From assembly GCA_030272155.1 (NCBI GenBank), contig CP126204.1:2471501-2535500 (forward strand): a DNA stretch of 64,000 nucleotides, given 5' to 3'. Origin of the DNA: Tetradesmus obliquus (Eukaryota; Chlorophyta; Chlorophyceae; Sphaeropleales; Scenedesmaceae). Both the position numbers and the translations under genes were made by a program. Positions 35-61,175 of the stretch are shown here, in pieces. Each line of letters begins with the position of its first letter. Position 1 is the stretch's first letter. The notes beneath the pieces were generated by a model, which worked only from the letters and a program-made list of their open reading frames with translations, did not search any database and was not told where the DNA came from.

Positions 35-3000
35 CTCCATGAGGCAGAAGAAGGCCTCGTTGATCATGGGGATGAGCACGCGGTTCACCAGGAAGCCCTG
101 GCAGCAGCAGCAGCAGCAGCAGCAGCAGCAGCAGCAGCAGCAGCAGCAGCAGCAGCCAGACGAGCAGCACAGCAACGTGCATGTCAGAGTGCTGAATTGT
201 CACCATATGCAATACTTCAACATGTCGCGTCAAGAACGCGTCACTTGACACAGACGCACCGACCTGGCCTGGCTGGTGGCCATATCCTTGCCTAGGACTT
301 CTGCCAGGCCCTTGCATGCCTCAACATGGGCACTCACTACTCAAGTAAGCCCATGTAACATAACACATTGAACTCTGAATTTGTAATAACATATGCTGTG
401 ACAGACGCACCAGCCTGTCCTGGCTGGTGGCCACGTCCTTGCCTAGGGACGCTGCCAGGCCCCTTGCATGCCTCAAAACTGGGCACTCACCGTTCACCAT
501 CAGCCGATATAACACACTACCACGATACGACAAATGAATGTAACATGTTATAACAAATGTTAAAACGTACGCACCGGCCTGTCCTGGCTGGTGGCCACGT
601 CCTTGCCCAGGAACTCTGCCAGGCCCTTGCAGGGTCAACGTGGGCACTCACCGCTCACCAAAGCCCATGTGACCCAACACACTTTACGACACATGAAAGT
701 GACATATCAAAACCTATGTTTTAACATACGCACCGGCCTGTCCTGGCTGGTGGCCACGTCCTTGCCCAGGAACTCTGCCAGGCCCTTGCAGGCCTCGAAG
801 GTCTGCCCGCTGGTGTGCTGGCCACGTGCCAGCTCCACCAGCTTCATCAGCGGCACAGGATTCATGAAGTGCATGCCGATCTGCAGTGGTGATAAATGTG
901 ACAAGAATGACAAGGCTGGCAAAAGTGACAAGAGTATGTTGTTCGACATGTGGCCGTGCCAGCTCCACCAGCTTCATCAGCGGCACAGGGTTCATGAAGT
1001 GCATGCCAATCTGCAGCAGCAACAAAAGTGGCGAAGAAAGTGACGAGAATGAGAAGAATAACATATACATAATTGAAGACAAGAGAAGGGTAGCGCCGCC
1101 AGGTCAACCAGCGTCATCAGCGGCACCGGGTTCATGAAGTGCATGCCGATCTGTCATGTTACAAGGGTGAGGTACAAGGGTGACAAAACAGTGACAAGAG
1201 TGAGAAGAGTGACAGGAGAGGGGCGGCAGTGCCAGCTCCAACAGCTTCATCAGCAAAACAGGGTTCATGAAGTGCATGCCGATCTGCAGCAGTCACAGTG
1301 GCACCAGCAGAGTGGCAGTTGCTGCAACTTTGATTTCAGTGACAGCAGCAGGGCTGCAAAAATAACCGGGTTGCAAACTACGATTGACCATCACACCATG
1401 CTGACGCACGATGCGTATGCCAGCTGCCGCGGGTCGTGCTGCTAGCAGCTTCTTACTTCGCACTCCAAAAGGGACAAAGAGGCCAAGATGCGCCAACCTC
1501 TGACTTCCCTGCGGCTGCTGCTGCTGCTGCTGCTGCTGCTGCTGCTGCTGCTGCTGCTGCTGCTCACCACTCTATGCGGCTTGCTGGTTGCTGCTCCCAG
1601 CTTGGTGATGCTTATGGATGAGGTGTTGGAGGCCAGGATGGTGTGCACCGACGTCACCTGCAGCACAGCAGCACAGATGTGCAGGCATGTGGAGGCAAGC
1701 CTATGTATTTGGCAGCACAATAAGAGGCCAGGATGGTGTGCACCGAAGTGACCTGCAGCACAGCAGCAAAAATGTGCAGGCATGTGGATGCAAGCCTATG
1801 TATTTGGCAGCACAATAAGAGGCCAGGATGGTGTGCACCGACGTCGCCTGCAGCACAGCAGCAACAATGTGCAGGCATGTGGAGGCAAGCCTATGTATTT
1901 GGCAGCACAATCGAGGCCAGGATGGTGTGCACCGACGTGACCTGCAGCACAGCAGCAAAGACGTGCAGGCACACGCGCTTGGCAAAAAATGAGTTGAAGA
2001 TGTGTCGAAGCAAGCAGCAAGCGGGTGCAGGAGAAGGGAGGCCAGGATGGTGTGCACCGACGTGACCTGCAGCACAGCAGCAGCACCGCTTCAATAGATG
2101 CCACAATAGAGGCCAGGATGGTGTGCACCGACGTCACCTGCAGCACAGCAGCAGCACCGCTTCAAATCATTTGCAGGCGTGTGGCATACGGCGAAGATGT
2201 GTCGAAAGGCAGCAAGTGGGTGACGTGACCTGCAGCACAGCAGCAAAGATGTGCAGGCATGCGGCATATGTTGAAGATGTGTCAAAGATATGTCAAAGAC
2301 GGCAGCAAATGGGTTCAGGAGCAGGCAGTGCAGGACCATGGGCTGGGTGCAGTGTACTGGCTATGCGCTCAGTCTGCTTGCGTGCTGGCAAACAGGCCAG
2401 CCCGCAAGCAGACTGAGCGCATATCTAGCAGTCTTGCACGTGCAACGCGTAGCTGCTGCCAGCAGCTGTGCTCGAGTTGCACTGCAGCTGCAACTAGGGT
2501 TTCATGGCATGCACTGCAGCTGCAACTAGGGTTTCATGGCATGCACTGCAGCCCCCCTGGCGATGCGTGCAATGGCTTTGCAGCAGCAGCTGCAGGGTTG
2601 TAACGGATGCACTGCTGAGCTGTTTCACTCCTGCAAGCATATGGTGCTCAGCATCTGTTACTTTACAAGCTCTGCAGGCTGCCAGCCTGCCCTAGCGATG
2701 GATGTTGTTGCAGTCAACTGCCTGTTACACCACGTGCTGTGTATCCCATCCATGCTATGCATGGCCACATAGCAGTGCTAACGTATGCACCAAAATGCAT
2801 GACATAATCTCGGCTGTAGTCTCTGCTGCTTGCCTAGCTGCTGCGCACCTTGTCTAGTGTTTGGAAGATGTTGCGCTTGATGGCTTCATCCTCAACCACT
2901 GCCTCAATCACAAAGTCCGCATGGCGCAGGCCCTGCATGCGTACAGATAAGACATATACATATTCAAACAGTTGCAAGGATGATACACTACATGCCAGGG

Positions 3001-58723: not shown

Positions 58724-61175
58724 CTAGTTTGGCATGACAGGTGCCTGCCCGTTGGTGAACCACAGCAATGCTTCCTGGCTGATGCCTGCCGGCACCACAT
58801 GGGGCCCGTTGAATTCCACGTAGTGCAGCTCACCCTGCAAGAGACGGTCAACAGAAGGCGGCAGCTGAACTCCACGCCTGCAGGAGCTGAGCTTGCACTT
58901 GTTGTGTGTATGTCTGGGTTGCTGCAAAATGGAGCACTGCCCGGGGCCTGGCCTGGGATGGCAGCAGCATGCAAAACATACAGCAAGTTTTGCAGTGGGA
59001 TCGCGCCGCGGCCATGCGCGACACTGTCATGCACACATATGTGACACGCCAACTCACGCACCTGTGGCAGCATCTGCTTCAGGCTTGGCAGCAGCCGCCT
59101 GCTGCAGCGCTCGATTGGCAGCACCTCATCATGCACGCCATGGCTGATGTACACCTTGGGGGAGCCAGCCTGGCAGGGGTATAGCACAGTATGTCCCAAG
59201 ACAAGTAGAGTGGGAGCAGCGGGGGAGACAAGAGCATGTCAATGCACATGCTGCTGGCAGATTGGTTCCAGCCTTGACGATGGTTGCGGGCTATGATTTG
59301 CAGTTGCTGCCAGCACATGCAAGGCAGCAAGTTGGTTGGGTGCCTAGGTGCAGCTGAGATTTGACAGCAATTGGGATTCAAGCTAAGAGTCTTAGGAATA
59401 TCAACACTAACCACAGGCTGTAGACAAGTCACCTCCCACAACAACCAACCAAGACAAGCCTCCAGGTGTTTCCTACCACAAGTCAACACAGCTCTACCCA
59501 CCACGCAAGGGGGCCGCATGAACCCTGGGGAGAAGGCGATGATATGGCTGAACAGGTCGCCATTGGGCAGCCCAAGCGACAGCGCATAGCTGGCACCATC
59601 ACTGAACCCTGCTATGCCCAAGCGGCTGGAATCCACACTGTAGCAATGTGGCTGAACAGGCCACCAGTAGATAGCTCAACCAACAGCGCTCAACTGGCAT
59701 TGACACAAACAGCTGCGACCCTAAATGCTTCATTACAGCAGCACAGCTCTACCTACCACAGACGGCGGCCGCATGACCCCTGGGGAAAAGGCGATGATGT
59801 GGCTGAACAGGTCACCATTGGGCAGCCCCAGCGACTGTGCATAGCTGGCACCATCACTGAACCCTGCTATGCCCAAGCGGCTGAGGCCCACACTGTAGCA
59901 ATGTGGCTGAACAGGCCACCAGTAGATAGCTCAACCAACAGCGCTCAACTGGCATTGACACAAACAGCTGCGACCCTAAATGCTTCATTACAGCAGCACA
60001 GCTCTACCTACCACACACGGCGGCCGCATGAACCCTGGGGAAAAGGCGATGATGTGGCTGAACAGGTCGCCATTGGGCAGCCCCAGCGACAGTGCATAGC
60101 TGACACCATCACTGAACCCTGCTATGCCCAAGCCGCTGGGGTCCACGCTGTAGCAATGTGGCTGAACAGGTCACCAGCAGATAGCTCAACCAACAGCGCT
60201 CAACTGGCATTGACACAAACAGCTGCGACCCTAAATGCTTCATTACAGCAGCACAGCTCTACCTACCACACATGGCGGCCGCATGAACCCAGGAGAGAAG
60301 GCGATGATGTGGCTGAACAGGTCACCATTGGCCAGCCCCAGAGACAGCACGTAGCTGGCACCATCGCTGAACCCTGCTATGCCCAAGCGACTGGGGTCCA
60401 CACTGTAGCGCTCAAACACATGCTGCAGGCTGCTGTTGATGTGAGCCACGTCAGGACCAAAGCTGCCCCTACAAGCAGCAGGCAGAAACAGGTACAGATT
60501 GCAGACTGTGCGCACATCCTGCCGTGGCTGGTTGCATGCAACACACTGGTTGACATGGTGTAGTGCTGCCAACGGTGCTTGCGACCAGCATGCTGGTCAC
60601 CAGTGGCGGCAGGACCAGCTTTTCCCGCAGCTTGCAGAACTAGCACAGCAGCCTGTGGGAGAGCCACTGCTGCATGCAGCCCACAGGTCCAAGGTTTGCT
60701 GGTTTCCGACACCAAACTACAGCAGTCTGTTACATCACACACTCACACATGCACATCACTAACATCTATGATGGCTGCTCACCTGATCATGTCCCAGGTG
60801 CGGCTGCTCCTGCTCTCAGGCACCAGCAGCAGGCAGCGCGATGCATCAAACACAGACAGCGCACCAAAGGTGGCTAATGTGTTGGGGCCGTGGCCGCCAG
60901 CGCCATGCAGCATCACAAGCAGCGGTGAGGGCAGGCTGGGGTTGTAGGTGGGTGGCACGTAGAGGTAGCTGTCCCTGCAGCAGCAGTAGCAGCAGCAGCA
61001 GCAGCAGCAGCAGCAGCAGCAGCAGCAGCGGCGGCGGCGGCGGCAGCAGCAGCAGCAGTCTGGAAGTTTGGGCGTCATCTGGGCGGCCTGAGAAAGGGTG
61101 TGCACTGTAGAGCGGCCGTTGCAGGCTGCGCAGCTGCCGCGGTGTGCTGAACACCATGCGCGAACGATGACGCAT
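58724..61175 (-). CDS. Alpha/beta-hydrolase (phospholipase/carboxylesterase-type) with possible transit peptide
   Basis: Serine esterase. Supported exons on the minus strand: 60974-60783, 60468-60267, 59169-59062, 58834-58724, with matching phases. Exon order gives YVPPTYNPSLPSPLLVMLHG (oxyanion strand HGAGG), LLLVPESRSSRTWD, RLGIAGFSDGASY (nucleophile Ser), HIIAFSPGF, PKVYISHGVHDEVLP (acid Asp), FNGPHVVP (His), TNGQAPVMPN stop. The triad is complete. A likely first exon begins at 61175 with MRHRSRMVFSTPRQLRSLQR, basic and acid-free, like a mitochondrial presequence. Its donor could not be placed because a (CTG)n tract at 60977-61060 intervenes. Substrate unknown; the family includes LpqC/PHB-depolymerase-like and phospholipase/carboxylesterase types. 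Convergent with the sushi-like gene, 162 bp apart. Confidence 0.82.
59495..60266 (-). repeat. Three ~254-bp tandem copies of esterase nucleophile-exon 3' part plus donor
   Basis: Units near 59500-59750, 59755-60005 and 60010-60265 repeat the exon from about SRLGIAGFSDGASY to FMRPPC, its GTAGGT donor and ~120 bp of intron. They lie downstream of the complete exon 60468-60267 and are 93-97% alike by eye. The unit being near a multiple of three keeps a spurious 365-codon frame open on the plus strand. Confidence 0.93.
60977..61060 (-). repeat. (CTG)n tract before esterase acceptor
   Basis: CAG/CGG triplets on the plus strand; CTG/CCG in the sense of the gene, ending at the acceptor of the 60974 exon. 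Confidence 0.95.

Follow-up and report, generated by a model that had tools for sequence, protein, structure and literature searches.

Many exons of Tetradesmus obliquus are flanked by arrays of partial copies of themselves, and these arrays follow a two-sided order in which copies upstream of an intact exon contain its 5′ edge and copies downstream of it contain its 3′ edge. The pattern was analysed in a stretch of 64,000 nt (positions 2,471,501-2,535,500 of contig CP126204.1, assembly GCA_030272155.1), here referred to as the window, and in two further samples of the same genome assembly, which comprises 104,662,953 bases in 17 contigs. All 189 direct edge copies counted in these samples obey the order (copies inside one array not being independent of each other), and beside them no full copy with both splice sites was found, of the kind seen in tandem exon duplication or in mutually exclusive exons. 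The copies probably stem from a recurrent, genome-wide, head-to-tail duplication of segments at exon borders, from which selection has kept the copies that hold one edge only.

Order of the exon-edge copies

Six genes of the window were modelled by hand (41 exons), the models being checked by translation and against Pfam. Each exon was aligned against its own flanks to call copies, and 40 of the 41 entered the edge-copy count, exon 1 of the mTERF-like gene being omitted. The nuclear introns here have GTGAG or GTGCG donors and TGCAG acceptors, which, like the presence of a flagellar gene and the genome size, are in line with a chlorophyte. The first of the two other samples was a set of 20 stretches, each 10 kb long and placed at round-number positions fixed beforehand; 19 were used and one was entirely N. 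Exons in these random stretches were predicted ab initio by a small gene predictor trained on the genes of the window, which recovered 27 of the 41 manual exons exactly, and only predicted internal exons with a coding score of at least 12 and a length of 45-400 nt were retained (73 exons). The second sample, obtained by a whole-genome Pfam search, consists of seven regions of about 11 chaperonin (TCP1/Cpn60) genes, in which 33 of 37 matches to the hidden Markov model (HMM) were used as exons; the four others resembled partial copies and were excluded, the choice of the intact exon being the analyst's. In one of these regions (L025, C15:2658001-2665000) a tandem duplication, 84% identical, lies at sense positions 4779-4976 within one long open stretch of chaperonin sequence matched by the HMM.

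The two-sided order had been proposed in an initial annotation of the window, and the counts bear it out. Among 69 copies in the six genes, all 40 with a 5′ edge lie upstream and all 22 with a 3′ edge lie downstream, numbers that do not change with other settings, and seven internal copies reach no edge (six downstream, one upstream); neither full-length nor inverted exon copies occur in these genes. The wider samples, where both kinds of edge could have turned up on both sides, kept the order: in the random stretches 39 of 39 5′-edge copies lie upstream and 43 of 43 3′-edge copies downstream, with no full copy, and in the chaperonin regions the direct edge copies number 22 of 22 and 23 of 23, respectively, next to seven internal ones. 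The other 13 rows from the random stretches comprise ten from one 25-nt stretch, apparently a simple repeat, of a single L023 exon, one inverted overlap and two internal copies. The lone inverted edge copy counted is a short 5′ part in a chaperonin gene (L027:3289-3324 and 3601-3636). Edge copies accompany 19 of 40 exons in the window, 31 of 73 in the random stretches and 15 of 33 in the chaperonin regions, or about four in ten, the chaperonin figure being biased upward by two regions (C16 and C12) that were cut to the 5′ part showing extra matches. Duplication of full exons was rejected as a description of the arrays, given that no full copies were found.

Random intervals, 7,148 in number, served as a control; they were taken from the random stretches and avoided only the exons with copies, not all predicted exons. 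When 566 edge matches overlapping the interval itself are left out, 532 of 936 (57%) and 572 of 954 (60%) edge matches fall on the side required by the rule, and there are 931 full matches; for the real exons in that table the counts are 38 of 38 and 36 of 36, with none full. The control thus lacks the rule and the exons show it, so that the order is a property of the exons and not of the method.

The initial annotation had put the two-sided rule forward as a new description, and in this it was only partly right: the order is real and absent from random intervals, but it is expected from the geometry of tandem duplication and selection for an intact exon, and is not an independent law. Where a segment that runs from a point x in the upstream intron to a point p in the exon is doubled, the second copy alone continues into the exon, leaving a partial copy upstream; where the mirror segment, with one end in the exon and the other in the downstream intron, is doubled, the partial copy comes to lie downstream; and where the doubled segment holds the whole exon, two full exons and therefore an altered protein result. 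Read in this manner, the two-sided order strongly favours tandem duplication over insertion. What is unusual is how common the copies are and how tightly they are tied to exon borders.

That edge copies carry the acceptor or the donor holds for most of them. Within the window the local alignment includes the acceptor in 39 of 40 5′-edge copies and the donor in 16 of 22 3′-edge copies, and in the three samples pooled AG is reached by 99 of 101 and GT by 81 of 88, but downstream copies of exons 12 and 13 of the formate-tetrahydrofolate ligase (FTHFS) gene, of exon 6 of the gene labelled S-formylglutathione hydrolase (SFGH) and of exon 2 of the esterase-like gene stop short of the donor. The 3′ end of a kinase-like gene had also been listed as a splice-junction case. 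The duplication is present there (23680-23947, plus strand, from local repeat matches, with PF00069 upstream) and takes in the coding 3′ end with the stop codon, but no donor is found, nor is one found at the last exon of FTHFS, where copies of the 3′ end lie beyond the stop codon (25066-25536, minus strand). Both arrays extend past a stop codon without a donor, and splice signals are hence not required to make copies.

Introners, or other mobile elements inserted in genes, would be in keeping with the many introns affected in many genes. The copies, however, match their own exon: repeat matches within 2.5 kb in the window number 81 direct and none inverted, as opposed to two matches farther apart, and an FTHFS exon used as a query against the genome gave five matches among the best candidates scored, all at its own locus. 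On the strength of the window and this one exon query the copies are local, and mobile elements were rejected as a highly improbable source. Inverted or dispersed duplication was set aside too; the 19 random stretches hold 202 direct and 7 inverted local repeats. Chance was rejected as well, as no direct local repeats remained after ten random stretches (nine with sequence, one masked) had been shuffled. Collapsed or mis-joined repeats can fake tandem copies in an assembly, yet the copies have diverged from the exon, they are present in most random stretches, and the frames of the modelled exons stay open. The initial annotation had already argued from independent substitutions that a simple artefact is unlikely, and differences between copy and exon are indeed found at about 6% of codon positions 1-2 and about 20% of position 3 (6.2, 5.7 and 19.8% at positions 1, 2 and 3), which leaves an assembly artefact with very little credibility. 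The mismatch in the intron parts of copies is biased low, since local alignment ends where similarity ends, and was not used for dating. It was also considered that upstream copies might be complete ancestral small exons; by eye, no consistent donor follows the copied part and no acceptor precedes the downstream copies, and this idea was dropped.

Origin and state of the copies

The mutational process would be recurrent and genome-wide: segments lying across exon borders, roughly 60-270 bp long (median about 130), would be doubled head to tail. Successive copies are spaced by 69-267 bp upstream (median 129, 101 units) and by 61-271 bp downstream (median 130, 88 units). We infer that duplications of whole exons would add protein sequence and be purged by selection, so that one-edge copies are left, and that arrays would grow or shrink through more duplication or through unequal exchange, which at times would swap a copy and the functional exon. 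Splicing presumably locates the intact exon by the nearest acceptor and donor, paired across it (exon definition).

Exon anchoring, the size of the units, the partition of exons and the state of the copies are not explained by geometry. The anchoring, the partition and the coding-like copies, along with the retention of AG described below, weigh against plain random duplication as a sufficient account, and they call for border targeting, a shared break point or some use of the copies. As to anchoring, the window contains 31 arrays. Of the 26 that fall within the six gene bodies, each one overlaps an exon, even though 76% of the bases there are intronic. None of the 26 is confined to an intron, and arrays in these genes are therefore not placed regardless of exons; with random placement of units of the observed lengths 45-69% of arrays would be intron-only (29-53% when halved to allow for poorer detection of such copies), with P between 1.2e-4 and 5e-14 according to the assumptions made. 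The anchoring may be due in part to old intron-only copies being even harder to detect.

Partition is seen in exons that carry copies on both sides. Edge copies accompany 64 exons in all samples, with both kinds present in 29, and in none of the 29 does the part found upstream share more than 15 nt with the part found downstream, where 7.3 such exons would be expected from independent duplications with the sizes observed (P=0.0003); in 12 of the 29 the copied parts meet within 15 nt, against 6.3 expected (P=0.011). Exons of which copies cover more than 0.7 number 0 of 49 and 2 of 44, as compared with 7.4 and 7.1 expected. In FTHFS exon 9 the downstream copies extend from nt 68 or 70 to nt 197 and the upstream copies from nt 1 to nt 67, 59 and 45, so that they abut at one point, and in FTHFS exon 15 the copied parts (1-110 and 111-172) abut likewise. 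Such cases suggest a recurrent break at a weak point p inside the exon, after which each end re-copies its own flank and copies on the two sides come to abut at p; in a variant, a complete fragment of local DNA is taken up at the break and splits the old exon into halves around a new intact one. An analysis of array ends that makes no use of exons (135 gaps) also has its highest density at gaps of 0-15 nt (11 of 135). In the same analysis, however, the density rises again at 75-150 nt (23 of 135) and there are two overlaps of more than 15 nt (34 and 99 nt), the gaps between copied parts reach 223 nt and are wide in long exons, which lack a central point, and the deficit of overlaps is not significant when copied fractions are shuffled (P=0.32). 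Break contexts had pointed to microhomology at CTG/CAG, but CTGC and GCAG are not enriched at the break points in exons (20% vs 18% and 24% vs 21%), and that model was rejected. A recurrent break is a possibility that we entertain with considerable doubt.

It has also to be asked whether the copies are functional, that is, whether their splice sites are used in nested or stepwise splicing or as alternative acceptors and donors and are kept by selection. Alignments were anchored 12 nt inside the exon as a guard against end bias; they show an intact AG in 77 of 80 copies and an intact GT in 55 of 61 (a different alignment gives 76 of 80 and 56 of 61). Compared with pairs of codon positions 1-2, AG is kept more often (96% vs 88.8%, P=0.006), whereas GT shows no significant excess (baseline 87.8%, P=0.26). 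Strong selection on the splice sites had been considered with any dinucleotide as the baseline (79%); the case weakened when the baseline was moved to codon 1-2 pairs, with AG alone significant. The splice sites of the copies had been portrayed in the initial annotation as decaying decoys, a view not supported here, as the dinucleotides are no less well preserved than codon position 1-2 pairs.

Each comparison of substitutions took an exon and two of its copies and disregarded the lineage that had diverged most (53 triples, of which 44 were counted and 9 were ties); copy lineages gave a ratio of nonsynonymous to synonymous rates (dN/dS) of 0.35 (52 synonymous, 56 nonsynonymous changes), the neutral expectation being about 1 and simulated neutral copies giving 0.99 under assumed branch lengths; the functional-exon lineage gave 0.06 (42 synonymous, 8 not), as for a coding exon. 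Ten pairs of sister copies differ from each other at 8 of 206, 14 of 208 and 24 of 205 sites at codon positions 1, 2 and 3, and the length of upstream units is a multiple of three in 45 of 101 cases (34 expected). On the other hand, among downstream units 33 of 88 have a length divisible by three, about a third; only 6 of 37 indels in the copies do; 11 in-frame stops occur in 183 copies; and changes at position 2 exceed those at position 1 in copy lineages (36 vs 19), which differs from true coding constraint. The same signal could come from exchange between copy and exon, and functional copies are on the whole unlikely. We read the coding-like signal as turnover, in which unequal exchange makes a given stretch the functional exon for part of its history; such swapping would explain the coding-like substitutions in the copies.

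A further reading brings several of these features together, in that exon borders would be targeted by a dedicated or strongly biased local duplication, with recurrent breaks at a point inside the exon, re-copying of about 130 bp of each end's own flank, no exon nucleotide copied on both sides, copies serving as a working or exchanging reserve with intact splice sites and coding-like substitution, and introns made from their own exons to an extent that covers a large part of intron length genome-wide. We regard border targeting in this full form as rather improbable, and take recurrent border duplication with selection for an intact exon as the working account.

Intron growth and comparison with known systems

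Intron lengthening is usually ascribed to transposons and slippage. In the six genes exon-edge duplication is a main source of intron length: 8,828 of the 18,255 bases (48%) in 35 modelled introns lie within spans bounded by an exon edge and the most distant copy of that edge, and the 22 introns with arrays have a median length of 587 nt, or 195 nt once the copy spans are subtracted, the median for the 13 introns without arrays being 288 nt. These figures uphold the proposal of the initial annotation that introns lengthen by repeated tandem duplication. According to a published table (PMC5966456), the mean intron of Tetradesmus obliquus measures 462 bp, as against 230-302 bp in three related Sphaeropleales, and exon-edge duplication is possibly behind this difference. 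The copies amount to a fossil record of intron growth that can be read one by one. They further offer a testbed for how the spliceosome chooses the correct site among near-identical ones, and for the step from duplication to a new intron, for which isolated examples, potato among them, are on record.

Minisatellites are likewise made of tandem units whose copies drift, but here all 26 arrays in the six genes take in some exon sequence. Local tandem duplication within genes was reportedly put forward as a source of intron gain by Gao & Lynch in 2009, the doubling of an exonic AGGT segment being said to make both splice sites. The arrays share with that model a local intragenic tandem duplication that drives change in intron content, and differ from it in that the copied segment holds one existing splice site together with part of the intron. 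The copies described here are nearly all direct, local and head-to-tail, and most hold a splice junction with part of the exon, as expected of tandem duplication at an intron-exon border.

The nearest parallel is the RdRp gene of potato, where a single tandem duplication across an intron-exon border is reported to have created a new intron, extending the Rogers model (PMC4974935). As in that case, the duplication spans an intron-exon border and the upstream copy places a once-exonic segment on the intron side; the potato case was one event that gave an extra intron with a cryptic exonic donor, whereas here existing introns were lengthened, repeatedly, on both sides of exons and in many genes. 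For stwintrons, it has been proposed that complex introns arise when an existing intron has its donor duplicated, which involves 4-7 nt, and nested splicing has been shown experimentally (PMC7138796). Donor duplication is common to both systems, but the units are 61-271 bp here instead of 4-7 nt. Tandem duplication of exonic DNA is also given as the origin of some Drosophila introns (PMC2891723). No description of a genome-wide, two-sided and iterated duplication of borders was found in the open-licence literature searched, which lacks most subscription papers, and the passages retrieved by a term search of papers on Haematococcus, Limnomonas, Scenedesmus NREL 46B-D3, Sphaeropleales and Raphidocelis do not mention the pattern. 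Single border-spanning duplications are known; the novelty lies in the scale, the presence on both sides and the iteration.

Arrays and neighbouring genes in the window

Array density differs strongly from gene to gene. The window begins with a 3-hydroxyacyl-CoA dehydrogenase-like gene on the minus strand (35-3363; PF02737, E=2.9e-62), which was modelled with five exons and extends past the window edge. Alignment of its exon 4 (734-880) to the flanks yields three 3′-edge copies with the donor downstream (250-799) and three 5′-edge copies with the acceptor upstream (825-1292), and exon 3 (1568-1657) has a 5′-edge array of five upstream matches in units of about 95 bp (1628-2335). On the same strand lies the gene labelled mTERF-like, a name that is unverified, a Pfam search of this gene having returned zero matches. 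Its exon at 12385-12498 has one 3′-edge copy downstream (12139-12432) and six 5′-edge copies upstream (12442-13246), and its exon at 13782-13911 has four 5′-edge copies upstream (13850-14371), all seen by exon-flank alignment.

The FTHFS gene is complete, with 15 exons encoding 634 aa (25474-35602, minus strand; PF01268, E=4.9e-250). From the 3′ end, exon-flank alignment gives exon 15 four 5′-edge copies upstream (25537-26345), in addition to the copies past the stop codon mentioned above, which were called by the same means. Exon 14 (26861-27026) has one 3′-edge copy downstream and one 5′-edge copy upstream (26688-27385), exon 13 (27517-27692) a 5′-edge copy upstream and an internal copy downstream (27395-27918), exon 12 (28220-28366) a 5′-edge copy upstream (28308-28517) and exon 10 (29658-29786) two 3′-edge copies downstream (29208-29728). 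Exon 9 (30457-30653) is flanked by three upstream and two downstream copies (29957-31102), and exon 7 (31820-31893) by four partial copies on each side (31437-32441); these two and dehydrogenase exon 4 had been singled out in the initial annotation as its best cases, with the same numbers of copies. Exon 7 shares a single open reading frame of about 229 codons with the copies of its 5′ part and their spacers (31819-32505, minus strand), whereas the frame is not kept across several other arrays. Towards the 5′ end of the gene, exon 6 (32740-32837) has a 3′-edge copy downstream (32542-32808), exon 5 (33021-33162) three 5′-edge copies upstream (33080-33649) and exon 3 (34327-34424) a 3′-part copy downstream (34210-34379).

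Two genes on the plus strand follow. In the flagellar gene CFAP77 (PF14825) the exon at 37946-38051 has a 3′-edge copy downstream (38003-38196). The gene labelled SFGH belongs to an esterase family (PF00756, E=5.4e-56); its exon 4 (40874-41075) has two upstream copies, one with the 5′ edge and one internal (40627-40972), its exon 6 (42020-42131) two 5′-edge copies upstream and one downstream that is short of the donor (41785-42275), and its exon 7 (42565-42631) two 5′-edge copies upstream (42276-42605). On the minus strand, an exon of the esterase-like gene (60267-60468; PF02230 and PF00756 above their cut-offs) is accompanied by three 3′-edge copies downstream in units of 255 bp (59484-60409).

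The kinase gene whose 3′ end is duplicated occupies 20729-23780 (plus strand) and encodes an AP2-like start, recognised by eye, a glutamine-rich middle with 12-bp repeats (21886-22086) and a C-terminal PF00069 domain (E=2.1e-13). A multi-exon cysteine-rich gene at 49430-58580 (plus strand), sushi/CCP-like by eye, has one local array (50272-50587). Between these, a retroelement-like coding stretch (44732-48184, plus strand) consists of two pieces with an in-frame stop between them. The second piece gave no Pfam match and includes YTNIPQQDL, which we take to be a reverse transcriptase-like motif. The first piece matches GIY-YIG (PF01541, E=7e-4) at 20.3 bits, below the curated cut-off of 22.6, and the stretch as a whole presumably resembles Penelope-like elements with an N-terminal GIY-YIG domain.

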